This document shows positions 3,443 through 16,732 of a stretch of 49,267 nt of DNA, piece by piece. Position 1 is the stretch's first letter. Every line of letters begins with the position of its first letter. The stretch comes from Puniceicoccaceae bacterium (GTDB lineage: Bacteria; Verrucomicrobiota; Verrucomicrobiia; Opitutales; Opitutaceae), in assembly GCA_007695295.1 (NCBI GenBank), contig REEB01000117.1, forward strand, positions 1 through 49,267, given 5' to 3'. The notes under the pieces were generated by a model, which saw nothing but the letters and a program-made list of their open reading frames with translations, was not told the DNA's origin and ran no database searches. The position numbers and the translations under genes are program-made.

Positions 3443-4642
3443 TCAGCTCCCGGGTGAGCCTCGGCGCGGGGGTGAAAGGGGCATAGGAGCTTCGCGGACC
3501 GGGCGCTCTTCGCGGATAGGCTCCTCGGCCAGCAGCTCGGCAACCCGTCGCGAAACATCGTCACCGCGAAGGTTGGTAAAGCGGGGCGTGCCGGTGCGGT
3601 CGAGTAGCACGGTGGCGGGGATGGCGCTGATGTTGTTCATCACCGCCGCCTCGGCCTGCCAGCCGCGGCCATCGTAAATCTGCGGCCAGTCCATTTCATA
3701 TTGCTGCATGACCTGCCGGATGCGGTCGTGGGCGTTGGCGCGATCGAGGGAAACACCGAGCACCTCGAAGCCTTGGTCCCGGTATTTCTGGTGGGCGGCC
3801 ACCACATGCGGCATCTCGGCGAGGCAGGGGGCGCACCACGTGGCCCAGAAGTCGATCAGGAGCACCTTGCCCTGAAAGTCGCTGACCGCGATCGTTTCAC
3901 CATCCAGGCCCGGACCTTCGAAGGTAACAAAGGGGATGCGCGAGGTGCCGTCGGCCATGGTGCCGCTTTGGCCGGGTTCGCCGTAAATATAGCGCATCAA
4001 ATTCTGGCGGGCGGCGGCGTCGAGCCGCGGATCGGTCATGGCCCGGGCGAGCAGTTGGTGAAAGACGGCGGCCGCGCCGGGGGCGTCCCGGGTGGCCAGC
4101 TCATGGCCGTAGTAGGTGTAAATCGAATACGGATTGGAGCTGTGGTCGGCGGCGATGGGGATGGCCTTGGCGAGTAGCTCAAAATCCTCCGCGCGCAAGG
4201 CCTCACCGGCGACGAGGGGGAAAATCCGTTCGCCGAAAAAGCCGATTACAGCCGGATTGGCGGCATGAGCGGTGACACCGCCATGCTCTTGGATATGCTC
4301 GGCGGCCCACCGCACCGCCTCGACCCGACCCTCGGAGCCTCCGAGAAAGTAACGGGGGGCGGCGGCCAGGTACGCCTTTTCCCCGAGGTCGATCCCGCTG
4401 GCCTCGTATTTTTCCCACCAGGCGGCGATGGCGGCCCGGCGCTGACGGGCGATCTCGGGGCTGGCCCGCAGATCGACGCCCTCGGGGATGGCGAGGGCCG
4501 TCATCAACTCTTCAACGGCGGCTTCAGGGGTCCAATCCGCTGCGGAGGCCGGGACGGCCAGCAGAAGGCAGGAGAAGCTCACGAGGAGGCACGGGAGCCG
4601 GCGGGCGGGCCGCGATGGGGCGGTGGCACGTGGTTCGGTCAT
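3443..4642 (-). CDS. Exported TlpA/ResA-like thioredoxin-fold protein
   Basis: Periplasmic thiol-disulfide oxidoreductase, 399 residues. The start at 4642 (MTEPRATAPSRPARRLPC) gives a signal peptide with hydrophobic core LLVSFSCLLLAVPASA. Residues about 35-225 are an alpha-helical region I do not recognise. The C-terminal third is an AhpC/TSA-Redoxin domain: VLLIDFWATWCAPCLAEMP with active-site cysteines C270 and C273, and IPATVLLDRTG carrying the cis-proline. The last 40 residues are Pro/Arg-rich and probably disordered. It is divergent from mraZ and convergent with the dehydrogenase, so it is likely a single-gene unit ending at the strong terminator next to it. A role in reducing exported apocytochromes or other thiol proteins is family-based inference. 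No Shine-Dalgarno is visible. Confidence 0.85.
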   Translation of the reverse strand: MTEPRATAPSRPARRLPCLLVSFSCLLLAVPASAADWTPEAAVEELMTALAIPEGVDLRASPEIARQRRAAIAAWWEKYEASGIDLGEKAYLAAAPRYFLGGSEGRVEAVRWAAEHIQEHGGVTAHAANPAVIGFFGERIFPLVAGEALRAEDFELLAKAIPIAADHSSNPYSIYTYYGHELATRDAPGAAAVFHQLLARAMTDPRLDAAARQNLMRYIYGEPGQSGTMADGTSRIPFVTFEGPGLDGETIAVSDFQGKVLLIDFWATWCAPCLAEMPHVVAAHQKYRDQGFEVLGVSLDRANAHDRIRQVMQQYEMDWPQIYDGRGWQAEAAVMNNISAIPATVLLDRTGTPRFTNLRGDDVSRRVAELLAEEPIREERPVREAPMPLSPPRRGSPGS

Positions 4643-4693
4643 AGGGAAACAGGGTAGTCCCGGGCGAGCCGGACGCAAGCGACCATGTTTAGT

Positions 4694-4719
4694 CCGGTGG
4701 GCCTAAGTGGGGCCACCGG
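4694..4719 (+). promoter_or_regulatory. Hairpin containing two TGGG repeats upstream of mraZ
   Basis: CCGGTGG (4694-4700) and CCACCGG (4713-4719) can pair as a 7-bp stem. The same stretch holds TGGGC at 4698 and TGGGG at 4708, exactly 10 bases apart, the spacing of MraZ boxes. Whether it acts as an RNA hairpin or an extra MraZ half-site is open; it lies about 160 bases before the mraZ start. Confidence 0.3.
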
Positions 4720-4756: not shown

Positions 4757-4776
4757 TGTGGATAACCTGTGGACAA
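4757..4776 (+). promoter_or_regulatory. Two tandem DnaA-box-like sites upstream of mraZ
   Basis: TGTGGATAA (4757-4765) is the exact complement of the consensus DnaA box TTATCCACA. TGTGGACAA (4768-4776) is the same box with one change. They lie in the same orientation 11 bases apart, one helical turn, about 100 bases before mraZ. No dnaA, dnaN or AT-rich unwinding region is present, so a regulatory role seems more likely than a replication origin. Confidence 0.55.
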
Positions 4777-4810
4777 GATTTCGGGCCAAAGGCGGCCTCA
4801 AAACCTTGAC

Positions 4811-4850
4811 TGGTGGGGCAAAGTGTCATGAAGTGGGGCATTGTGGGGCG
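4811..4850 (+). promoter_or_regulatory. Candidate MraZ operator: four 10-bp direct repeats
   Basis: Four consecutive decamers align: TGGTGGGGCA, AAGTGTCATG, AAGTGGGGCA and TTGTGGGGCG, giving TGGGG at 4814, 4834 and 4844 and a degenerate unit at 4824. Escherichia coli MraZ binds TGGGN repeats separated by 5 bases (10-base period) in its own promoter, which is the pattern seen here. A TTGACT (4806-4811) could be a -35, but no good -10 is visible and the repeats would overlap it, as expected for repression. The last unit ends 20 bases before the mraZ start codon. Confidence 0.7.
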
Positions 4851-5323: not shown

Positions 5324-5647
5324 TGCACACCGTCTATCAGCTGTTACTTATCCTGAGAAGCTGCCTGCTGCGGAGCCGGCGGCTGGCGGAGACCCGGCGG
5401 CACCGGCCCTTGGCGATCCGGGGCGCCGGCGAGTTCCACCTCATCGGGGTTTGCGGAACCTTGGGGCGGCCGCGCATCCGGCATTGCTCCCAGTGGGATC
5501 TGGAGCCGCGGCCCCGTTACCGTCCCGATCGATTTCTCTCGCCCGTGGTCCGTGCGGAAAACCGCCGCCACGCTTCCCATTCCAGTGGTGAAACCCCGAC
5601 CCGCCATGCCCACGGCCTGGATTAACCCGCTTGGGCTGCTTCCATTG
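5324..5647 (+). other. Unexplained 324-base gap between mraZ and rsmH
   Basis: This is the one large gap in an otherwise tightly packed cluster. A 100-codon frame (5323-5625) starts at an ATG sharing a base with the mraZ stop (TGATG), which would allow coupled translation. Its product is Arg-rich, begins [20 protein letters not shown] and matches nothing I recognise, so it may be chance. The stretch does not show the conserved cores of RNase P RNA or tmRNA, and I see no tRNA or strong terminator. It could be an mRNA leader for rsmH, an internal promoter region or a decayed gene. Confidence 0.3.
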
Positions 5648-6580
5648 ATGAGCCGCCACCTGCCCGTCCTGCTCGAGGAAGTGCTGGCCGCCCTCGCTCC
5701 GCGCGAAGGCGGGCACTATCTGGACTGCACCTTTGGCGGAGGCGGACACACCGCCGCGCTCCTCGAGCGCACCCCCGGTTCGCGGGTGACCGCCCTGGAC
5801 CGCGATCCCGCCGCCCGCGGGCGGGCCGCCGACGCGGCCGGGAAATTCCCCGGAAGACTGACCTTTGCGCCCCTGGACTTTCGTCGCCTCGGGGAGGCCG
5901 GGCCCGGTCCCTACGACGGCATCCTCTTCGATCTCGGGGTGTCTTCCTTCCAGCTCGATACCCCGGAGCGCGGGTTTTCCTTTCAGGCGGACGCTCCCCT
6001 GGACATGCGGATGGATCCGACCGTCGGTCAGTCGGCCGCCGACTGGCTGCGGCAGGCCAGCCGGGCGGACCTTGTCCGCGCCATCCGCGATTACGGTGAG
6101 GAACCGCGCTGGCGTCGGATCGTCGATGCCCTGCTCCAGGTCCGCGAGGCGCAACTGCCGGCAACCACCGGGGCCTTGGCCGAGCTGATCGAGCGGGTCA
6201 ACCCCCGGCGGCCCGGTCCCGCGGGTCGCCTGCATCCCGCGACGCGGACCTTCATGGGCTTGCGCATCGCGGTCAACGACGAGCTCGGTGCGCTCGAAGA
6301 TGCGCTTCCGCAGGCCATGGAGCGTCTCGCCCCCGGCGGGGTGCTGGCCGTGATCAGTTTTCATTCGTTGGAAGACCGCTTGGTGAAGCGCCGTTTCCGC
6401 GAGTGGGCCGGTCAACCCGTCGACCGTTCCGACGCCCGTCCCCGCCAGTCCGTCACCCCGGTGGCGGAGCTGCTATCCAACCGGCCGATCCGGCCGACCC
6501 CCGCCGAAGAGGCGTACAATCCGCGCAGCCGGTCCGCCCGGCTCCGCGCTCTGCGCAAACTCCCGAACCGATCCCGCTGA
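5648..6580 (+). CDS. rsmH: 16S rRNA (cytosine(1402)-N(4))-methyltransferase RsmH
   Basis: S-adenosylmethionine-dependent methyltransferase that modifies C1402 of 16S rRNA; old name mraW. 310 residues from the ATG at 5648 ([16 protein letters not shown]), which matches the family start HxPVLLxEV; in-frame ATG at 5606 would add an unconserved extension. SAM-binding motifs: [24 protein letters not shown], and [15 protein letters not shown]. The family C-terminal signatures follow: [15 protein letters not shown] and [20 protein letters not shown], then an Arg-rich tail [13 protein letters not shown]. Its stop overlaps the start of the next small ORF (TGATG). Confidence 0.95.
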
Positions 6581-6759
6581 TGACTGCAACCGACCTACTC
6601 GATACCGTTCTCGACCGCCTGCTTCTGGATGAAGACCTCTACGCGAGTTTTCGCCGTGAAGCCGGACTCGATCCCGAAGAAACCGCCGCCGAGGTGGTGC
6701 CGTTCCCGGCCGAAGCCCCGGCGACCGAACCGGAGCTGCCCCTGCGGCAGGTCGTCTGA
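6580..6759 (+). CDS. Small acidic protein between rsmH and ftsL, unknown
   Basis: 59-residue frame starting [21 protein letters not shown] and ending ELPLRQVV. It overlaps rsmH by one base at its start and the ftsL-like gene by one base at its end (TGATG at both junctions), the coupling pattern of real genes in this cluster, which is the main reason to accept it. The product is strongly acidic (Asp/Glu-rich, with a Pro/Glu/Ala tail), has no signal peptide or membrane segment, and the first 30 residues could form one amphipathic helix. No known family recognised. It may act with FtsL or simply bridge translation; both are guesses. Confidence 0.6.
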   Translation: MTATDLLDTVLDRLLLDEDLYASFRREAGLDPEETAAEVVPFPAEAPATEPELPLRQVV

Positions 6760-7145
6760 TGATGGCCCGCGACCGCCAGACTCACCGCCTGCTCAACCGA
6801 ATCCTCGGCCTGTCACTGCTCGTTCTGCTTCTGGCCGGCGCCTCCGGCCTGGGCATCGTCTGGCTGCGCCAGCAGATCGGCGTCTCCGCCGCTGAAACCC
6901 AGCAAGCGCGGGCCTCGATCGAGGCGCTCGCCTGGAAGCTCCGCAGTGTTGAGGCCGAGATCGCGGCCTGCACCAAGTACGAGTTCCTGATGGCGCAAAA
7001 CCGTGCCTTTCAGCTCGGATTGGTCCCGCCAAAGGAGGACCAGATTGTCCGGGTGATGCCCGGGTTGGCCGAGCGCTTTGCCGACAAGCGGTATCAGGAC
7101 TACAACATTGTCTTTGTTTCTGCACCCGAGGAGGGGGCGCGCTGA
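6759..7145 (+). CDS. ftsL: FtsL-like bitopic division protein
   Basis: Predicted single-pass inner-membrane protein of 128 residues in the position where ftsL sits in dcw clusters (between rsmH and ftsI). A short basic cytoplasmic N-terminus (MARDRQTHRLLNR) is followed by one membrane segment (ILGLSLLVLLLAGASGLGIVWL, residues about 15-36) and a helical, probably coiled-coil region to about residue 72 (ETQQARASIEALAWKLRSVEAEIA). FtsL sequences are poorly conserved, so the name rests on topology, size and position. Two adjacent ATGs (6759, 6762) could serve. In the divisome it would pair with FtsQ and activate FtsW/FtsI. Confidence 0.65.
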   Translation: MMARDRQTHRLLNRILGLSLLVLLLAGASGLGIVWLRQQIGVSAAETQQARASIEALAWKLRSVEAEIAACTKYEFLMAQNRAFQLGLVPPKEDQIVRVMPGLAERFADKRYQDYNIVFVSAPEEGAR

Positions 7146-7190
7146 CCCGCCCTTTGCGGCCGTTGCCGGAAGCAGCAGCCTTTTCCTCCC

Positions 7191-8957
7191 ATGAACCGGA
7201 GCCGATTTGCCTGCGGATACCGTCACTGGCTGGTTTTCCTGACCGTCCTGGTGGGCTTTGTCGGGGTCGGTTACCGGCTGGTGCATCTGCAGGTGGTCCA
7301 GGGAGAACAATTGCGTCTGCAGGCGGAGTCCCTCCGGGAGCAGCACCAGACCTATGCGGCCCGGCGGGGGAATATCCGTGATTCCGCGGGGCAACTGCTG
7401 GCCACCAGCAGCATCCTGCATGATTACGGCGTCGACCAGACCAGGCTCCATCCCGCCGATCGCCGCAAACTTCCCGAACTCGCCGAACTCCTGCAGATCC
7501 CTCTGCCCGAGTTGGAGCGGCTGATCTATGGCTTCGAAATCCCGCGGCAGTGGCTGAGGTTGAAGCGCGGGGTGGACGACGACACTCACCGGCGGATCAG
7601 CGCCCTCGACTTCAAAGGGGTGTATGGAAACCGCTACTACGAGCGGGTCTATCCCGGGCGTTCCATGGCCGCCCATGTCATCGGTTATCTCAATCGCGAA
7701 AGCACCCCGGTGACCGGGGTGGAGCGGCATTTCGACTTTTACCTGCGGGGGCAGAACGGCTGGGGTCGCACCATTCTTGACGGACGGAGAAACGAGCAGT
7801 CCCGCTTCCGCGATGTGGCGGTGGCGCCCCGGGACGGACTGGATGTGATTCTGTCGCTGGACCGGGTGGTCCAGCACCATATCGAAGAACAGATAACCGC
7901 TCTCGTGGACGGCTTTCGTCCCGACGGCGTGACCGTGATCGTTTCCCGGCCCGCGGATGGTTTCATCCTCGGGCTGGGAAATTATCCCACCTTCGATCTC
8001 AACCACTTCAACCGCGCTCCCCTCGAACATCAGCGCAATCGTGCCGTCACCGACGTGTTCGAACCCGGTTCGACCTTTAAGATCGTGCCCACGGCCGCGG
8101 CCCTCGAGCTGGGCCTGGTGAATGAGAGGACCCTGATCGACTGCAGTTTGCGGTCTCTGGATTATCGTGGCCGGCGGGTCGGCCTGCCCTCCGATGTGCG
8201 TTCCTACGGCACGCTCTCCCTTCCCGAAGTCGTGGCCAAGTCCAGCAACAGCGGCACCGCCCAGATCGGCCTGCTCCTCGGGCGGCAAGCGCTCCATGAC
8301 TATGCCTCCGCCTTTGGATTCGGCGAACCGACCGGTTATCCGTTGGGCGGGGAAGTGCGCGGCATTCTCCACCCGGTTTCCGCCTGGGACGGTCTCACCA
8401 TCACCCGCTTGCCCATCGGCCACGCCGTCAGCGCAACCCCGCTGCAAGTGCACTTTGCCATGTGCGCCATCGCCAATGGAGGGCTGCTCATGCAGCCGCA
8501 GGTGGTCCGGCGGATCGAGGACGGGGAGGGCCGCATCGTGCTCGAGGTCGAGCCGGTCTTTCGCCGCCGGGTGGTTTCTCGGGAAACGGCCCAGCGGATG
8601 AGCCGCCTGCTCGCCGGTGCGGTTTCGACGGAAGGGACCGCCTCCCGGGCGGCGCTGCCGAACCACCATGTCGCCGGCAAGACCGGCACCACCCAGAAGA
8701 TCGTCGACGGCCGCTATTCCCGCAGCCAGCACATCGCAACCTTCAGCGGTTTCTTCCCCGCCGAACGTCCCGAGGTGGCGATCACCGTGGTGGTGGACAA
8801 TCCCCGCCATGCCGGCACCGGCTACGGCGGTCTGGTCGCAGCGCCCGCCTTCCGCGATCTGGCCCTGGCCCTGATCAATCATCTCAACATCCCGCCCTCC
8901 GACCTGAGAAACACCTATGTCGCTTTTGAACGGAACCCAGCTGATCGGCTACCTTGA
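7191..8957 (+). CDS. ftsI: Septal peptidoglycan transpeptidase FtsI (PBP3)
   Basis: Class B penicillin-binding protein, 588 residues, that cross-links septal peptidoglycan. One N-terminal membrane anchor (WLVFLTVLVGFVGVGYRLV, residues 13-31), then the PBP dimerisation/pedestal domain (RRGNIRDSAGQLLATS) and the transpeptidase domain with all three active-site motifs: S294TFK, S351SN and K497TG. No PASTA domains. Ends NPADRLP. The leader is pyrimidine-rich without a Shine-Dalgarno, 45 bases after the ftsL-like stop. It is placed directly before murE as in many dcw clusters and works with FtsW encoded downstream. Confidence 0.95.
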   Translation: MNRSRFACGYRHWLVFLTVLVGFVGVGYRLVHLQVVQGEQLRLQAESLREQHQTYAARRGNIRDSAGQLLATSSILHDYGVDQTRLHPADRRKLPELAELLQIPLPELERLIYGFEIPRQWLRLKRGVDDDTHRRISALDFKGVYGNRYYERVYPGRSMAAHVIGYLNRESTPVTGVERHFDFYLRGQNGWGRTILDGRRNEQSRFRDVAVAPRDGLDVILSLDRVVQHHIEEQITALVDGFRPDGVTVIVSRPADGFILGLGNYPTFDLNHFNRAPLEHQRNRAVTDVFEPGSTFKIVPTAAALELGLVNERTLIDCSLRSLDYRGRRVGLPSDVRSYGTLSLPEVVAKSSNSGTAQIGLLLGRQALHDYASAFGFGEPTGYPLGGEVRGILHPVSAWDGLTITRLPIGHAVSATPLQVHFAMCAIANGGLLMQPQVVRRIEDGEGRIVLEVEPVFRRRVVSRETAQRMSRLLAGAVSTEGTASRAALPNHHVAGKTGTTQKIVDGRYSRSQHIATFSGFFPAERPEVAITVVVDNPRHAGTGYGGLVAAPAFRDLALALINHLNIPPSDLRNTYVAFERNPADRLP

Positions 8958-9033
8958 ACGACCGCTTCCACCATCCCCATCCCGCCTGCCCGGAACGCGT
9001 TCCGGCCGGCGGGTGTCTCGTGTTCGTAAACTC

Positions 9034-10530
9034 ATGCCCACGGATCGCCATTTGAGCCGGCTCTTCGCCGGCATTCCCACGATTCATGCCAAAGGCCCTC
9101 CCGACCAGGAGATCCGGCAAATCGCCATCGACAGTCGGCGGGTTGTACCCGGTGGCCTCTTCTTCGCGCTCCCCGGCCAGCGCACCGATGGAACCGGCTT
9201 CATCGACGAGGCCATGCGGCGCGGCGCTGTCGCTGTGGTCTCCCCCCGGCCGCTCGCTTTTGTCCCCAAGGGCGTGACCCACCTCCAGGTGAGCGACCCC
9301 CGTGAAGCGCTGGCCGCCGTGGCCCGGCGATTCTACGCCCGGCCCGATGAAGCCCTGGAAGTGTTCGGCGTCACCGGCACCAACGGCAAAACCACTGTCG
9401 CCAGCCTGCTGCGGCATCTGTTGCGGGCCGCCGGCCATCAATGCGGCCTGCTCGGCACCATTCACTACGACCTCGGCGCCCGCACGGTTCCCTCCTTCCG
9501 CACCACTCCGGAAGCCCACGACACTTTCGGCATGCTGGCACAGATGAGGGATGCCGGCTGCACCGCCGCCGCCCTCGAAATCAGCTCCCACGGCCTCGAC
9601 CAGAGCCGGGTGCGCGGCATGCAGATCCAGGGAGCCGCTTTTCTCAATCTTACCCGCGACCACCTCGATTACCACGGCTCCATGGAGGCCTACTTCGAGG
9701 TCAAGGCCCGGCTTTTCACCGGTCAAAACGGCCCCTTGCCCAAGGTCGCGGCGATCAACCTCGACGATCCCTACGGCCTGCGCCTGCTCGAACGCATCCC
9801 GCAGGAGGTGCGGCTCGTCACCTTCGGACTCAACTCCTCCGCGGAACTTTGGGCCGACCAGCTCGAACTGGGCCTGGAAGGCAGCGCTTTCGTGGTCCAT
9901 GCCGCCGGCGAGCAATTCAAGGCCCGCACACCGCTGATCGGCGGTTACAATGTCAGCAACACCCTCGCCGCCCTCGCCTTGTTGCACGGCCGGGGGGTGC
10001 CCCTGGGGCCGCTGGTGGCGGCGCTGAAGGATTTTCCCGGCATCCCCGGGCGGATGGAGCGCATCACCCATGCCCACGGTTTCGGAGCCGTGGTCGACTA
10101 CGCCCACACCGACGATGCCCTCAGCAATGCCCTCGGCATGCTCCGGAGCATCACGCCCGGCCGCCTGCTGGTGGTCTTCGGTTGTGGTGGCAAGCGCGAC
10201 CGCTCCAAGCGCCCCACGATGACCCGTGCGGTCCAACGAGGCGCCGACCTCGCCTGGGCGACGGCTGACAACCCCCGCGGAGAACCGCTCGCCCGGATCT
10301 TCGAGGACATGAAGGAAGGGGTCGACGATCCCTCCACCATCCGCTGGGTCGAGGATCGGCGGCACGCGATTTCCCTCGCTCTTGATGAAGCCCGCCCCGG
10401 GGACTGCGTACTGGTGGCGGGCAAAGGGCATGAGACCTTCCAGGAATTTGCCGACACCGTGGTGCCCTTCGACGACCGCCAGGTGCTGCGCGAACTACTC
10501 TCCATACGCAGCATCAAAATGCCGATGTGA
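9034..10530 (+). CDS. murE: UDP-MurNAc-tripeptide synthetase MurE
   Basis: Cytoplasmic ATP-dependent ligase adding the third stem-peptide residue to UDP-MurNAc-L-Ala-D-Glu. 498 residues from ATG 9034 (MPTDRHLSRLFAGIPTIH); an earlier in-frame GTG-type start at 8917 would overlap ftsI and add 39 unconserved residues. Domains: N-terminal uridine-binding (IAIDSRRVVPGGLFFALPG), central ATPase with P-loop GVTGTNGKTTVASLL, substrate motif EISSHGLDQSRVRG, and the C-terminal ligase domain with DNPRGEP. The DNPR motif marks meso-diaminopimelate-adding MurE in characterised enzymes, so a meso-DAP peptidoglycan is inferred. Confidence 0.94.
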   Translation: MPTDRHLSRLFAGIPTIHAKGPPDQEIRQIAIDSRRVVPGGLFFALPGQRTDGTGFIDEAMRRGAVAVVSPRPLAFVPKGVTHLQVSDPREALAAVARRFYARPDEALEVFGVTGTNGKTTVASLLRHLLRAAGHQCGLLGTIHYDLGARTVPSFRTTPEAHDTFGMLAQMRDAGCTAAALEISSHGLDQSRVRGMQIQGAAFLNLTRDHLDYHGSMEAYFEVKARLFTGQNGPLPKVAAINLDDPYGLRLLERIPQEVRLVTFGLNSSAELWADQLELGLEGSAFVVHAAGEQFKARTPLIGGYNVSNTLAALALLHGRGVPLGPLVAALKDFPGIPGRMERITHAHGFGAVVDYAHTDDALSNALGMLRSITPGRLLVVFGCGGKRDRSKRPTMTRAVQRGADLAWATADNPRGEPLARIFEDMKEGVDDPSTIRWVEDRRHAISLALDEARPGDCVLVAGKGHETFQEFADTVVPFDDRQVLRELLSIRSIKMPM

Positions 10531-11942
10531 TGGCAGGGTATCTCCAGCCGGCCGAGCTACTCGCGGGAACAGGGGGGAGTTGGATCGGCGATCCACCCGC
10601 GGAACTGACGGGCGCATCCATCGACACCCGCACCCTCGCGCCCGGTGAGCTTTTCATAGCCCTGCGCGGGGCGGAGCGCGACGGCCATGCCTACCTCGCC
10701 GCCGCCGCCGCCGGCGGCGCCGCCGCCGCGGTCGTCTCCACCCCGGATCCCGGCCTGGCCATGCCCCAGCTGGTGGTGGACGACACCCTGGCCGCGCTCC
10801 ACCGGCTGGCCCGTGCCCGGCGGGCGGCCTTTGCGGGACCGGTCATCGGCTTGACCGGATCCTGCGGCAAGACTTCGACCAAGGATCTGCTCGCCCTGCT
10901 CCTCGGAGGCGACGAGGTGGTCGCCCGCACCCGGGGGAATTTTAATAACAGGATCGGCCTGCCCCTGACACTTCTGGGTGTGCGGCCGGGCCGGCATCAA
11001 TTTGCTGTGATCGAGGCTGGCATCAGCCTGCCCGGTGAGATGGACGAACTCGCCGCCCTGCTCGTCCCGGACCATGTGATCGTGACGCTGGTGGCGGAAG
11101 TTCATCTCGAAGGGCTCGGCAGCATCGAAGGCGTGGCGGAGCAAAAAGCCCGCCTTCCGGCCGCCCGCCGCGGCGGTGGTTGGGTGGTTTTTCCCGGGGA
11201 CTGCCTGCGGTTCGAGGCCTTTCGACGCCTGGCTGCTCCGGGTCTGATCGTGGGCCCGGCGGAGGCCGTGGTCCCGACGGGCTTCGGCGTGGTCCTGCCC
11301 GAGCTGAACTGGCGGGCCGATGGCGCCGTCAACCTGATTCTGCCCGATGGGGAAGCTCCCTCCGGCCGGGAACACTACCTGCTCACTGGGGCCGGCAGCG
11401 GCATGGCCCGCAATGCCGCTCTGGCATTGGTTCTCGCGCGCCGGCTCGGGATGCCGGCGGCGGTCCTGCGGGAGCGTTTGCTGCGCTGGAAACCGCCGCG
11501 CTGGCGGGGTGAGCTGCTGCGCCGCGGCCGGGCCCTCATCTGGGCGGACTGTTACAACGCCAGTCCGGTTTCCCTGGCCGACGCCCTCGAGACCTTCAAC
11601 CGCCGCTTCCCGGCCGAGCGGGAGCGGCTCTTCATCCTTGGCTCGATGCTGGAGCTGGGTTCCGCCGCCGCCGACTGGCACCGTAAGCTGGGCGCCGGGG
11701 CCGGATTCGGGCCGCACGACACGGTCTGGTATATTGGCGACCATGGCAAGGACTTCGCCGCCGGCGCGGCCGCGGCCGGCTGGCGCGGGCGGATTCGGTT
11801 TTTCTCCGATCCGGCGGAGCTTGCGCCGATGGTGCGTGACTTCGAAGGCCCCGTTCTGATCAAAGGCAGCCGCCGCTGGAAGCTGGAGACCTGCCTCCCG
11901 CCCGAAACCGCCGCCCCCTCGAACCGGGAGGTCCCATGCTGA
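10530..11942 (+). CDS. murF: UDP-MurNAc-pentapeptide synthetase MurF
   Basis: Adds D-Ala-D-Ala to the UDP-MurNAc tripeptide; 470 residues from ATG 10530, which shares one base with the murE stop (an alternative GTG lies one codon earlier). N-terminal domain: GASIDTRTLAPGELFIALRG. Central ATPase: P-loop IGLTGSCGKTSTKDLLALLL then TRGNFNNRIGLPLTLL. C-terminal Mur ligase domain: IWADCYNASPVSLADALETF, the family's YNANP-type motif, here with Ser in place of the second Asn. Its dipeptide substrate comes from Ddl, encoded 9 kb downstream in the same cluster. Confidence 0.94.
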   Translation: MAGYLQPAELLAGTGGSWIGDPPAELTGASIDTRTLAPGELFIALRGAERDGHAYLAAAAAGGAAAAVVSTPDPGLAMPQLVVDDTLAALHRLARARRAAFAGPVIGLTGSCGKTSTKDLLALLLGGDEVVARTRGNFNNRIGLPLTLLGVRPGRHQFAVIEAGISLPGEMDELAALLVPDHVIVTLVAEVHLEGLGSIEGVAEQKARLPAARRGGGWVVFPGDCLRFEAFRRLAAPGLIVGPAEAVVPTGFGVVLPELNWRADGAVNLILPDGEAPSGREHYLLTGAGSGMARNAALALVLARRLGMPAAVLRERLLRWKPPRWRGELLRRGRALIWADCYNASPVSLADALETFNRRFPAERERLFILGSMLELGSAAADWHRKLGAGAGFGPHDTVWYIGDHGKDFAAGAAAAGWRGRIRFFSDPAELAPMVRDFEGPVLIKGSRRWKLETCLPPETAAPSNREVPC

Positions 11943-13036
11943 GCTGGTTGGCCGAGTATGAAGCTGTTTTCGGACCGTTGCGGCTGCTGCGGTTCATCAC
12001 CTTTCGCACGCTCGCGGCCGCGGGCACCGCACTCCTCATCGGCTTCATCATCGGCCCGTGGCTCATCGCCACGCTCCGCCGCTTCAGCCTGCAGCAGAGC
12101 CTGCGTGGCAAAGAGGAAGTCGGCCGCCTGGCCGAGCTTCACGAGGGCAAGAAAAATACGCCCACCATGGGCGGGCTGATCATCTTCTGCGGCATCATGA
12201 TCAGCGCCCTGCTCTGGGCCCGGCCCAACATCTACGTCGGCGTCGCCCTCGCGGTCTACGCCAGTCTCACCGTGCTGGGATTTCTCGACGACTGGCTCAA
12301 AGTCTCCCGCCGCAACAGCCGCGGCCTGTCCTCCCGCCGCAAACTGGCCTGGCAGACGCTCACCGCCGCCGCCGCGCTCGCGCTCCTGCTCTGGCACCCG
12401 GAGAGCGCGGCCAAAATGCGGGAAATCTGGATTCCCTTTCTCAAGGATCCCGTGTTGACGGCGGCCCCGATCGCTCTGGTCTTCGGGCTCTTCTTTCTCG
12501 TCCTCGTGGGCTCCAGCAACGCCATCAACCTGACCGACGGCGTGGACGGCCTCGCCATCGGCTGCACCATCTCAGTGGGCTTGGTTTACGCCATCATGGC
12601 CTACGCCTCCGGCCACGCCATCATTGCAGATTACCTGCTCATCAGCAACGTGCCCGGTACCGGGGAGCTGACCGTGGTCTGCGGGGCGATGGTGGGGGCG
12701 GGGATGGCCTTTCTCTGGTTCAACAGCCACCCCGCCGAGGTGTTCATGGGGGACACCGGCTCACTTGCCCTCGGGGGGATGATCGGGGCGGTCGCCTTTA
12801 TGGTCCACCAGCCGTTGACCCTGGTGGTGGTGGGGGGTATCTTCGTGCTCGAAGCCCTTTCGGTCATTCTGCAGGTCGGATCCTACCGGCTGCGGGGCAA
12901 GCGGATATTCCGCATGGCCCCGCTGCACCACCACTTCGAGCTGGCCGGCTGGGCTGAAACCAAAGTTGTCATACGATTCTGGATACTCTCTTTGCTCTTC
13001 GCCCTCGCCGGGCTCGGCACCCTGAAACTCCGATGA
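11936..13036 (+). CDS. mraY: Phospho-MurNAc-pentapeptide transferase MraY
   Basis: Integral membrane enzyme that transfers phospho-MurNAc-pentapeptide to undecaprenyl phosphate (lipid I). 366 residues with about ten membrane segments. Family signatures in order: KKNTPTMGGLII, FLDDWLKV (catalytic Asp pair), SSNAINLTDGVDGLAIG, FNSHPAEVFMGDTGSLALGG and RMAPLHHHFELAGW (the HHH segment). It overlaps murF by seven bases, and a clear Shine-Dalgarno (GGGAGG) sits 4 bases before the ATG inside murF, one of the few strong ones in this cluster. Confidence 0.97.
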   Translation: MLSWLAEYEAVFGPLRLLRFITFRTLAAAGTALLIGFIIGPWLIATLRRFSLQQSLRGKEEVGRLAELHEGKKNTPTMGGLIIFCGIMISALLWARPNIYVGVALAVYASLTVLGFLDDWLKVSRRNSRGLSSRRKLAWQTLTAAAALALLLWHPESAAKMREIWIPFLKDPVLTAAPIALVFGLFFLVLVGSSNAINLTDGVDGLAIGCTISVGLVYAIMAYASGHAIIADYLLISNVPGTGELTVVCGAMVGAGMAFLWFNSHPAEVFMGDTGSLALGGMIGAVAFMVHQPLTLVVVGGIFVLEALSVILQVGSYRLRGKRIFRMAPLHHHFELAGWAETKVVIRFWILSLLFALAGLGTLKLR

Positions 13037-14364
13037 CCGCATCCTCCTTATTTCTGCCCCACTGGCTCAAGGACGCCCTCGCCGCCCCGGTGGCGGTGCT
13101 TGGGGCCGGACGCAGCGGCCTGGCCGCGGCCGCGCTCCTCCGCCGCCTCGGAGCGGAGCCAGTCCTCTACGACGAGGCTCGGATGGAAGGGGTCGAGCCG
13201 CTTGCCTTTGACCAAGCCCACGCCCGCCGCCACCGGCTGGTGGTGTACAGCCCGGGCTTTCCGCCCCGCCATCCCTGGCTGGAGGAGGCCCGCGGCGCGG
13301 GCTGCGAATGTGTCGGCGAGATGGACCTTGCCGGACTGCTGTGGCCGGGCCGGATCATCGCCGTCACCGGCACCAACGGCAAAACCACCATCACCGCCTT
13401 TCTCGCCGAGGCCCTGCGGGCCCTGGGGCTGGATGCGCGCGCCGCCGGCAACATCGGGCGGCCCTTCGCCTCACTCTTCACGGAATCGCCCGGTCCGGAG
13501 TCCATCGCGGTCTGCGAAGTCAGCTCCTTCCAAGCCGAAACGATGCGCTATTTCCGGGCCTGGGCGACGCTTTGGCCCAATTTTGCCGAGGACCATCTCG
13601 AGCGCCACCGGACGTTGGAAAAGTATTTCCACGCCAAATACAACCTTGTGAAACGCACCGAGGCCGACCGCGTTTTCTTCGGCCCGAGTGTCTTTGCCAC
13701 CGCCCGCTCCCTGCGCCTGGATCTGCCCGTCGGCAACCTCGTGCCGATGGAACACCTCGCCGTCGACCCCCGGCTGGAGGGGACGCCCTTTGCCCGCTTT
13801 CCCCAGCGCACCAACTACACTCTCGTGGAAACATTCTGGAAGCGGATGGGCTGGCCGGTGGAGAAACTCCTGGAAACGGCGCGGACCTTTCAATTGCCGC
13901 CCCACCGGCTCAACCTCGTGGCGACCCGCGACGGAGTCGAGTTCTGGAACGACTCCAAGGCAACCAACTACCATGCCGTGGAAGCGGCCTTGGACTGTTT
14001 CTCGGGTCCGGTGCGTTGGATCGCGGGCGGGCGGATGAAAGGCGGGGACCTGGCCGGCTTTGCGGGAAGGATCCACGCCCGCATCGAGGCCGCCTATTTC
14101 ATCGGTGAAGCCGCTTCGGGGCTGGCCCGGGCTTTCACCGACTGTGGCCATCCGGACTTCCAGATTTGCAGCAACCTCGAGGAGGCGGTCACCACCGCGG
14201 CCGCCGAGGCCCATCCTGGTGACACCGTCCTCTTCAGTCCGGCTTTTGCCAGCTATGATCAGTTCCGCGATTATGCCGACCGCGGCGAACGCTTCGAAAC
14301 CTGTGTGCGCGGGCTCCGCGCAGGCGTTTTTTTGTTAGCCACCTCCCGCCCCTCGAAACCATAA
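13033..14364 (+). CDS. murD: UDP-MurNAc-L-alanine:D-glutamate ligase MurD
   Basis: Cytoplasmic ligase that adds D-glutamate; 443 residues. Rossmann-like N-terminal domain (VAVLGAGRSGLAAAALLRRLGAE), central ATPase with P-loop IIAVTGTNGKTTITAFL, substrate signature EVSSFQAET and WPNFAEDHLERH, and C-terminal domain with WNDSKATNYHAVEAAL and the typical closing motif VLFSPAFASYDQFRDYADRG. Overlaps mraY by four bases (ATGA). Residues match the family well; nothing odd. Confidence 0.95.
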   Translation: MTASSLFLPHWLKDALAAPVAVLGAGRSGLAAAALLRRLGAEPVLYDEARMEGVEPLAFDQAHARRHRLVVYSPGFPPRHPWLEEARGAGCECVGEMDLAGLLWPGRIIAVTGTNGKTTITAFLAEALRALGLDARAAGNIGRPFASLFTESPGPESIAVCEVSSFQAETMRYFRAWATLWPNFAEDHLERHRTLEKYFHAKYNLVKRTEADRVFFGPSVFATARSLRLDLPVGNLVPMEHLAVDPRLEGTPFARFPQRTNYTLVETFWKRMGWPVEKLLETARTFQLPPHRLNLVATRDGVEFWNDSKATNYHAVEAALDCFSGPVRWIAGGRMKGGDLAGFAGRIHARIEAAYFIGEAASGLARAFTDCGHPDFQICSNLEEAVTTAAAEAHPGDTVLFSPAFASYDQFRDYADRGERFETCVRGLRAGVFLLATSRPSKP

Positions 14365-14371
14365 TCCCATC

Positions 14372-15472
14372 ATGAACACCCAGAAGATTTTCCTGATCGT
14401 CGCCGGGGCGCACCTCCTTGGGTTCGTCGTTTTTCTGACGGTCCAGGGTATCCGCTCCGCCGGCTCCGAGTCCGCCGCGGATGTCCACCAGCCTCCCGCC
14501 GTCGAAGCCGTTGAAGGCGAAACCGCCGAGGCCTGGACCGCCCGTCTGGCCCAGGCTGCTCCCCTGAGCGGGTCCACCCCCGCCGAGCGCGCCCGCCAGG
14601 CACCGACCCGCCCCGCGGATCCCCCCCGGCCCTCGCCCCGGGAGCGCGATGAACCACTCCTGCGCCCCCTCCCCCCCCCACCGCGCGACGCGGAAGCCCA
14701 ACGCCCCCCTTCCGGTCCTCCCCCCACCATCGACTACACCGTCCAGCGCGGTGACAGCCTTTGGGTGCTGGCCCGTCGCTTCGGCACTTCGGTGGACAAC
14801 TTGGTCGCCCTCAATCCGGATATCCAAGCCTCCAGCATCCAGGTGGGCCAAGTCATCAAAGTGCCGCGCCCGGGGACGGAGGAGCCCTCCACGGCCGAAG
14901 CCCGGACGGAAACGCGCCCTCCCGCGGAGGCGCGGCCGGAGCCCGACCGCGGGGCGCCCACCACCTACGTGGTGCAGCGGGGGGACTCGCTCTCCCGCAT
15001 CGCCGCCCGGCACAACGTAACCGTCTCCGCCCTGCGTGAAGCCAACAACATCCGCGGTGACCTCATCCAGGTCGGTCAGGAACTCACCATTCCCGGGACC
15101 GCGCCCGCCCGCCGTCCCTCCCACGATGTGCCCCGGGAGGAATTGGTGCGGGTAACCCTTGAGCCCGGCGACACCCTCGGTGCGATTGCCCAGCGCTTCG
15201 ATGTTTCCGTGCAGGAGTTGATGCGTGCCAACAACATCTCCGACCCACGGCGTGTTCGTGCCGGCCAGGAAATCGTCATTCCCGGTTTCCAAGCCGTCGA
15301 TCCCGCTCCCGCCCAGGAGCGCACTCCTTCCCCCCGACCGGCCCAGCCGCCCCAGCAGCAGCGCCGGGCCGATCCCGACCCCCGGACCTTGCCCGAGGAT
15401 CTCGATTCGCTCCTGCCCGATGACCTCGAGCCCGTTCCGGTCATTCCGATCCAGGAAGCGCCCCGCCGTTGA
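14372..15472 (+). CDS. Membrane-anchored protein with three LysM domains
   Basis: 366-residue protein with an N-terminal membrane anchor or uncleaved signal (IFLIVAGAHLLGFVVFLTVQG), a long Pro/Ala-rich linker (about residues 30-120), and three LysM peptidoglycan-binding domains: YTVQRGDSLWVLARRFGTS..., YVVQRGDSLSRIAARHNVT... and VTLEPGDTLGAIAQRFDVS..., each ending in QxIxIPG-like strands. A second Pro/Gln-rich stretch and an acidic C-terminus (LPEDLDSLLPDDLEPV) follow. It starts 7 bases after murD and precedes ftsW, so it is probably co-transcribed with the divisome. It has no recognisable hydrolase domain. A role as a septal peptidoglycan-binding or scaffold protein is inferred from position. 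Confidence 0.85.
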   Translation: MNTQKIFLIVAGAHLLGFVVFLTVQGIRSAGSESAADVHQPPAVEAVEGETAEAWTARLAQAAPLSGSTPAERARQAPTRPADPPRPSPRERDEPLLRPLPPPPRDAEAQRPPSGPPPTIDYTVQRGDSLWVLARRFGTSVDNLVALNPDIQASSIQVGQVIKVPRPGTEEPSTAEARTETRPPAEARPEPDRGAPTTYVVQRGDSLSRIAARHNVTVSALREANNIRGDLIQVGQELTIPGTAPARRPSHDVPREELVRVTLEPGDTLGAIAQRFDVSVQELMRANNISDPRRVRAGQEIVIPGFQAVDPAPAQERTPSPRPAQPPQQQRRADPDPRTLPEDLDSLLPDDLEPVPVIPIQEAPRR

Positions 15473-15571
15473 GAGATTCTTGATGCTGTCCGGCCGGCCC
15501 ATCCATGCATCCACCCGCGGGGGTCCTTTCCTGAGCCCGGGCGTCCGCGGCTTCCAGCCCTGCTGCGAGTG

Positions 15572-16732
15572 ATGGCCCGCCCGACCGCCATCTCCGCCTC
15601 CGCCGCCTCCGGCCATGGTCCGGTGGCGGTGCTGATGCTGGCCGCCGCCGCCCTCACGCTGTTGGGGCTGGCGATCATGTTCAGCGCCAGCGTCACCGCG
15701 CACTCCAATGCCCAGTATTTCATCCACCGGCAATTGATCTGGGTCTGCGTCGCTCTGGCCGCGATGGTGGTGGTTTGGCAGGTGCCGCTGGACTGGCTGC
15801 GCTCGCTGGCCTGGGTCTTGGGAGGGCTGGCACTGGCTTCGCTGGTGCTGGTGCTCATCCCCGGCATCGGACTGGAAATCAACGGCAGCCGCCGCTGGCT
15901 GGATCTCGGTCCGATGCGGGTTCAACCAAGTGAGTTTGCAAAACTCGCCCTCATCTTCTGCCTCGCCCATTACTGCGGATTGAACCAGAACGCCATCGGC
16001 GAGTTCTGGAAAGGCTTTGTCCTGCCCTGTGCCGGCATCGGAGTGGTCTTCGTCCTCCTCATGCTCGAGCCCGACTACGGCACCGCGGTCCTGACGGCTG
16101 GTCTCGGCGTGTTGCTGCTTTTCCTGGCCGGCGCCCGGCTGATCTACCTCGTGCCGAGCGGGGTGGCCGGTTTGGGATTGTTCACGATCGCGGTCATGGC
16201 CAATCCGGTCCGCCAGGCCCGCATCCTCGCCTTTCTCGATCCCGAAACAAGCAGGTCCGATGCCGGGTACCAGCTTTACCAGGCTAAGCTCGCCTTCGGC
16301 GTCGGCGGGACCACCGGGGTCGGCCTCGGCAATGGCAGCCAGCAGTTCGCCTACCTTCCGGAGGCGCACACCGACTTTATTTTTGCCATTGTGGGCGAGG
16401 AGCTGGGGCTGGTCGCCGCGCTCGGGGTGGTGATCCTCTATGCCACCGTGCTGGTGGCGGGGGTGCTGCACCTGCGGCGTGCGCCGACCCTGTTTCATTA
16501 CCTCCTGCTCGCGGGCTGCCTGCTCCTGCTCTCCCTGCAGTCTCTGATCAATCTGGGCGTCGTCACCGGCTGCTTGCCGACGAAAGGCATTGCCCTTCCG
16601 TTTATTAGCTACGGCGGCTCCAACCTGGTCTTGATGGGCATGATCCTCGGCCTCGTCCTCAACTCCCACCGCACGTGGTCCTCCCCGGTGCTGCGGGAGC
16701 GGCGGCGCACCCTGCGGGAGGTGTCGGTATGA
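15572..16732 (+). CDS. ftsW: Septal peptidoglycan glycosyltransferase FtsW (SEDS family)
   Basis: Polytopic SEDS-family protein that polymerises lipid II at the septum with FtsI as partner. 386 residues, about ten membrane segments. Diagnostic motifs: INGSRRWLDLGPMRVQPSEFAKL, LMLEPDYGTAVL, the extracellular LPEAHTDFIFAIVGEELG (holding the Asp essential in SEDS proteins) and GCLPTKGIALPFISYGGSNL. The ATG at 15572 is preferred over a GTG one codon earlier. The 99 bases between the LysM gene and ftsW hold nothing I can identify. Its stop overlaps the murG start. Confidence 0.95.
   Translation: MARPTAISASAASGHGPVAVLMLAAAALTLLGLAIMFSASVTAHSNAQYFIHRQLIWVCVALAAMVVVWQVPLDWLRSLAWVLGGLALASLVLVLIPGIGLEINGSRRWLDLGPMRVQPSEFAKLALIFCLAHYCGLNQNAIGEFWKGFVLPCAGIGVVFVLLMLEPDYGTAVLTAGLGVLLLFLAGARLIYLVPSGVAGLGLFTIAVMANPVRQARILAFLDPETSRSDAGYQLYQAKLAFGVGGTTGVGLGNGSQQFAYLPEAHTDFIFAIVGEELGLVAALGVVILYATVLVAGVLHLRRAPTLFHYLLLAGCLLLLSLQSLINLGVVTGCLPTKGIALPFISYGGSNLVLMGMILGLVLNSHRTWSSPVLRERRRTLREVSV

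Follow-up and report, generated by a model that had tools for sequence, protein, structure and literature searches.

MraZ is among the most widespread bacterial regulators, and the way in which it reads DNA is poorly known. The operator of E. coli MraZ, which Eraso et al. are said to have described in 2014, reportedly lies at the mraZ promoter and is composed of TGGGN repeats. For the Mollicutes, the PDB contains complexes of M. genitalium MraZ with its promoter (9r4j and 9sz7, compared here by title), the second of which is titled '4 box promoter'. As regards DnaA, its binding to the ftsL promoter of B. subtilis and to the ftsZ promoter of Caulobacter is described, and the DnaA boxes of E. 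coli ftsQA proved inactive (PMC8203912). Among the papers searched, none joins mraZ with DnaA boxes, and a paper on the dcw cluster of Verrucomicrobium contains no discussion of an mraZ operator.

The locus presented here belongs to a window of 49,267 nucleotides, by which we mean the whole stretch of DNA that was analysed. Four units of 10 bp precede mraZ in it, and the explanation that we hold with high confidence is that they would form an MraZ operator repressing mraZ and the dcw genes, with DnaA probably acting on the same promoter. Such an operator is an element of a known kind; its placement and its DnaA neighbour look new for this lineage. The more interesting result is the covariation of the operator letters with one residue of MraZ, residue 13.

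Probable operator array and promoter upstream of mraZ

Positions 4800–4850 of the window read AAAACCTTGACTGGTGGGGCAAAGTGTCATGAAGTGGGGCATTGTGGGGCG. As the earlier note had correctly described, TGGGG starts at 4814, 4834 and 4844, a degenerate unit (GTGTCAT, 4823–4829) occupies the 4824 slot, and about 20 bases separate the last unit from the ATG of mraZ; taken as GTGGGG and GTGTCA, the units form a strict 10-bp ladder (Table 1). TGGGG with offsets 0/20/30 occurs a single time in the window, both strands counted. We defined an MraZ operator as at least three head-to-tail [AG]TGG units of 10-bp period, lying in the promoter region of an mraZ whose product has the D-x-K-x-R loop and conserved in orthologous promoters. 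The window has three TGGGG units and one GTGTC unit in register before a gene encoding D18-A-K20-N-R22, and the array is kept in the orthologous promoters described below. The same note had also proposed a possible extension by a second pair at 4698 and 4708; this pair is present but not conserved, and hence is not part of the array, TGGG pairs at 10 bp upstream of the −35 element numbering 4 in 69 same-family loci against 0.55 expected from shuffled sequences. The pair sits inside an inverted repeat, CCGGTGGGCC/GGGGCCACCGG. The repeat itself (4693–4719, CCGGTGGGCC-TAAGTG-GGGCCACCGG) lies between mraZ and the divergent upstream gene (3446–4642, minus strand), which encodes an AhpC-TSA/thioredoxin-like protein according to Pfam.

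Table 1. Positions of the operator, promoter, DnaA and coding features in the window
Feature	Position	Strand	Basis
DnaA box TTATCCACA (TGTGGATAA on the plus strand)	4757..4765	-	Sole TTWTNCACA in the window; family-conserved
Imperfect DnaA-like box TTGTCCACA, oriented like the first and 11 bp away	4768..4776	-	Sequence
−35-like element TTGACT	4806..4811	+	TTGAC conserved 7–11 nt before the first unit
MraZ box 1, GTGGGG	4813..4818	+	Sequence, periodicity, family logo
MraZ box 2, degenerate, GTGTCA	4823..4828	+	Sequence; TGTC units in register in relatives
Candidate −10 hexamer TGAAGT	4829..4834	+	Family logo GAAAT at the same place
MraZ box 3, GTGGGG	4833..4838	+	Sequence, periodicity, family logo
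Putative transcription start, A after C	4840	+	Family logo, invariant purine after C
MraZ box 4, GTGGGG	4843..4848	+	Sequence, periodicity, family logo
mraZ, 150 aa	4871..5323	+	PF02381, MraZ fold, residue comparison
Lys20 codon	4928-4930	+	D-x-K-x-R loop of MraZ
Arg22 codon	4934-4936	+	D-x-K-x-R loop of MraZ
dcw genes presumed under the mraZ promoter	5552..16732	+	Pfam, ORFs

The array stands directly 5' of mraZ and the dcw cluster, in which mraZ is followed by rsmH, an ftsL-like ORF, ftsI, murE, murF, mraY, murD, a LysM ORF and ftsW; the ORF with LysM repeats, between murD and ftsW, covers 14372–15472. The encoded MraZ matches PF02381 twice, and its model (pLDDT 75) superposes with Z about 14 on 1n0e, 9r4j and 9sz7, the next fold reaching Z 4.6, so that both the two MraZ domains and the MraZ fold by which we recognise the family are found.

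The layout of the promoter was deduced from the relatives. In most loci (C)TTGAC starts 7–11 nt ahead of the first unit, and the spacers of the same-family logo read AAA[AG] after unit 1, GAAA after unit 2 and C[AG]-T after unit 3. The GAAAT at units 2–3 would fit a weak −10 hexamer at 17–19 nt from the −35 element, and a start site would suit the place behind unit 3, where C precedes an invariant purine. The corresponding hexamer of the window, TGAAGT, stands 17 nt from TTGACT and has its final T in common with box 3; as a −10 element it is non-canonical, and a scan for consensus sigma-70 promoters or terminators gave no match. Repression by occlusion is likely since the array covers the candidate −10 and putative start site: MraZ, probably as a ring-shaped oligomer, would contact the four boxes, spaced by the helical repeat, from a single side of the helix, and, as the array starts right behind the −35 element, the bound protein would exclude RNA polymerase and so repress mraZ and the downstream dcw genes. 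Triple-TGGG matches in the window's genome are as numerous as in reversed controls (2 vs 2), so no other MraZ target is visible there. A structured leader RNA at mraZ is not supported either (z +1.4, no Rfam match).

Conservation of the 10-bp ladder

The upstream regions of mraZ were gathered from about 105–106 loci that belong to the family and order of the window, and the sampling was then widened by 98 further mraZ loci from the class and phylum and by about 100 additional ones. Among about 105 relatives, two TGGG words lie 10 bp apart 174 times where shuffled sequences give 0.8, 20 bp apart 110 times (0.6 expected) and 30 bp apart 47 times (0.7 expected), whereas a distance of 9 bp was seen once and one of 11 bp twice. 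The 10-base periodicity, for which the earlier note had proposed a comparison of relatives, is thus kept at about 200-fold above shuffles, and 63 of the 70 same-family loci repeat TGGG at 10 bp. A GC-rich genome and a simple motif might make one think of a G-rich repeat arisen by chance or slippage and devoid of function, but the excess of 10-bp pairs in relatives and their fixed place leave this origin with practically no probability, and we regard it as refuted by conservation. TGTC, TGGT and TGGA units share the 10-bp register in many relatives, so that the GTGTC unit of the window is a real variant. In a few loci (L298–L300, L076 and L093) the arrays upstream of mraZ consist mostly of GTGTC(A) units instead of GTGGG, and in three loci of family f30 (L210, L214 and L215) GTGTA-like words are found upstream of mraZ, a clear TGGG ladder being absent and MraZ diverged.

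Operator letters and MraZ residue 13

In the class and phylum loci, some families show TAGG at the same 10-bp period. Residue 13, the lysine of LDxKxR (K13 in E. coli, K20 in the window), is K in 125 of 128 TGGG-type MraZ proteins and Q in all 16 of the TAGG type. A search for a motif of four units of 10 bp, with no unit assumed and the loci grouped by residue 13 alone, returned AAA[GA]TGGG for the K group (core RTGG), AAATAGG for the Q group (core TAGG) and TAATGGAA for the N group (core TGGA); on shuffled sequences it found no motif. When the grid was placed on GG only, the K-type loci had T as the base 5' of GG in 143 cases and A in 4, whereas the Q-type loci had A in 42 cases and T in 2. 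The exceptions are arrays that are weak or have slipped out of register by one base within a G-run. N-type units carry A after GG in 81%. Small groups hint at further letters, namely S with CGG (L431, L446) and V or A with TTTGG (L144, L200, L204). S-type MraZ proteins (DGSRR/DSSRR) are found at L431, L446, L447 (in the second mraZ) and L422, with CGG-like units in some, and L447 and L422 each hold two mraZ-like genes within one locus. Across these loci the operator letters change in step with residue 13; the relation is a correlation, and it ties MraZ to the array. It singles out one swappable residue for the reading of DNA by MraZ: Lys20, beside Arg22 in the D-x-K-x-R loop, probably helps to read the [GA]TGG core.

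The same covariation bears on the proposal that the G-rich repeats are kept for a G-quadruplex controlling mraZ. A 2025 paper (PMC11796246) described such a structure in the mraZ promoter region of S. aureus, together with comparable motifs elsewhere among bacteria, and mraZ promoters are said to conserve it; four G-runs of 3 or more are indeed present in 52 of 169 K-type loci. They are found in only 3 of 47 Q-type and 0 of 28 N-type operators, however, in spite of the exact 10-bp ladder being kept, and, with GTGTC as box 2, the window region has no set of four G-runs of at least 3 whose loops are 12 or shorter. Since the letter before GG tracks a residue of MraZ, the repeats appear to be maintained on account of MraZ, and we consider a quadruplex very improbable as the conserved feature.

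Hardly more probable is the binding of the array by another regulator, the correlation with residue 13 reflecting shared ancestry only. The independent changes at this position are few: the protein tree requires about three gains or losses of Q, about two independent changes from K to Q are resolved, and an independent-pairs test on this tree has 2 informative pairs with 2–3 changes to Q, so that significance is unreachable. Against this, binding to such boxes is established for the MraZ of E. coli and of Mollicutes, and residue 13 shifts identically in two separate Q lineages (Q in 47/47 and 31/31), being K in 193/193 and, among the order relatives of the second lineage, in 18/18. It is the sole column of the loop with an identical change in both; one column outside the loop, E. 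coli W53, converges too. The second lineage is family f54, within the window's own class, where TAGG ladders are present in some members (L503, L504) and weak in many. At least 118 stretches of four TAGG at 10 bp occur in 85,000 genomes; among the matches listed nearly all are unrelated, and one precedes mraZ, in a Lentisphaeria bacterium whose MraZ is of the Q type as predicted.

Genomes with a Q-type MraZ often carry a second MraZ, with N at residue 13 and a TGGA array. In each of the 15 genomes that hold both proteins, the units of the Q-type MraZ1 are richer in A before GG than those of MraZ2, each operator fitting the residue 13 of its own protein; as the difference is found within single genomes, base composition is not its cause. 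The second paralogue, with the motif DxNGR[IL]KLSP and its own TGGA 10-bp array, is seen in L263–L281 and several of L449–L473, and in several of them the second mraZ is followed 3' by a small membrane ORF, a protein made of the PBP dimerisation domain only and the start of FtsW/RodA. Such pairs would represent a natural specificity switch with insulation between the paralogues. As a wider reading, which we favour with some reserve, residue 13 would act as a code (K for [GA]TGG, Q for TAGG, N for TGGA, perhaps S for CGG and V or A for TTTGG), a duplicated MraZ in a Lentisphaeria-like clade would have used it to give two operators that do not cross, of which one would serve dcw and the other a second cell-wall operon, and the promoter of the window's family would be tied to DnaA. 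The autoregulation of mraZ through 10-bp boxes, as put forward in the earlier note, is strongly supported by the conservation throughout the lineage at a fixed distance from the −35 element and by this covariation.

DnaA boxes and comparison with known systems

Upstream of the −35 element the window contains its only TTWTNCACA match, where 0.6 are expected in 49 kb; the argument for DnaA thus rests on position and conservation, not on the count. Of the 70 same-family loci, 38 have the word TGTGNAWAA within 50 nt upstream of the −35 element; 4 more have a single copy in the following 50 nt, and elsewhere within about 1 kb the word is absent in that orientation. With up to one mismatch and in one orientation, TGTG[AG]ATAA is present at 57 of the 69 same-family loci, whereas a coding control has it in 1 of 69. 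Relative to flanks, it is enriched about 145-fold within the family and 28- to 57-fold within the class and phylum. A tandem TGTG at 11 bp accompanies 16 of 53 family boxes, and TGTGNAWAA-N15-45-TTGAC occurs once in the 4.6-Mb genome of the window. As marks of a DnaA-regulated promoter we took TTWTNCACA at a conserved place and orientation, which is found, and the same box variant at dnaA. Indeed, most relatives have TGTGAATAA upstream of dnaA, where it frequently shares the CTT extension as well; TTATNCACA occurs only 7 times in one complete genome of 6 Mb (G003), one copy being at mraZ and another immediately before dnaA, and only 9 times in another (G013), again including one at mraZ and one at dnaA. 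In the genome of the window itself, dnaA has only a DnaA-like box with one mismatch, and closely spaced exact DnaA boxes were not found there. Upstream of dnaA in L113, L119, L246, L253 and others, a conserved TATGC...TGTGAATAACTTGTCGGAAAGTT element was also seen about 280 bp from a second box; in it a DnaA box is joined to an inverted repeat, AACTT...AAAGTT, and the element is possibly part of oriC.

TGTGA is a CRP-type half-site too, and the conserved stretch runs on to CTT, so that TGTG[AG]ATAA might be the site of a factor other than DnaA. We consider this unlikely, though clearly less so than the alternatives discussed for the array: the word agrees exactly with the DnaA-box consensus, the 9-mer, partly together with CTT, recurs in the dnaA region of most relatives, and a conserved inverted partner half-site is missing. 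With DnaA as the preferred ligand, the tandem boxes would probably let DnaA act on the mraZ promoter and couple replication initiation to the division genes, a predicted and testable link for the Verrucomicrobiota.

Compared with E. coli, the locus has in common the head-to-tail TGGG units of 10-bp period beside an mraZ that heads dcw, and the MraZ loop with K13 and R15. The view that the site logic is the same therefore holds for the units and not for their placement: in E. coli the boxes follow a recognisable −10 (TTGACA-17-TAAACT), whereas those of the window begin right behind the −35-like element and lie over the candidate −10 and start. Moreover, the stretch examined at E. coli mraZ has no DnaA box. 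The boxes of Mollicute MraZ, AAAGTG[T/G], are fitted by the window unit AAAGTGTCAT, and four boxes with an AAAGTG core are common to both, although the Mollicute protein is about 20% identical to that of the window and its dcw context is different. As at B. subtilis ftsL and Caulobacter ftsZ, DnaA boxes, here predicted ones, stand beside the promoter of a division gene; unlike in those systems, they are placed directly upstream of an MraZ operator, at mraZ and in the Verrucomicrobiota.
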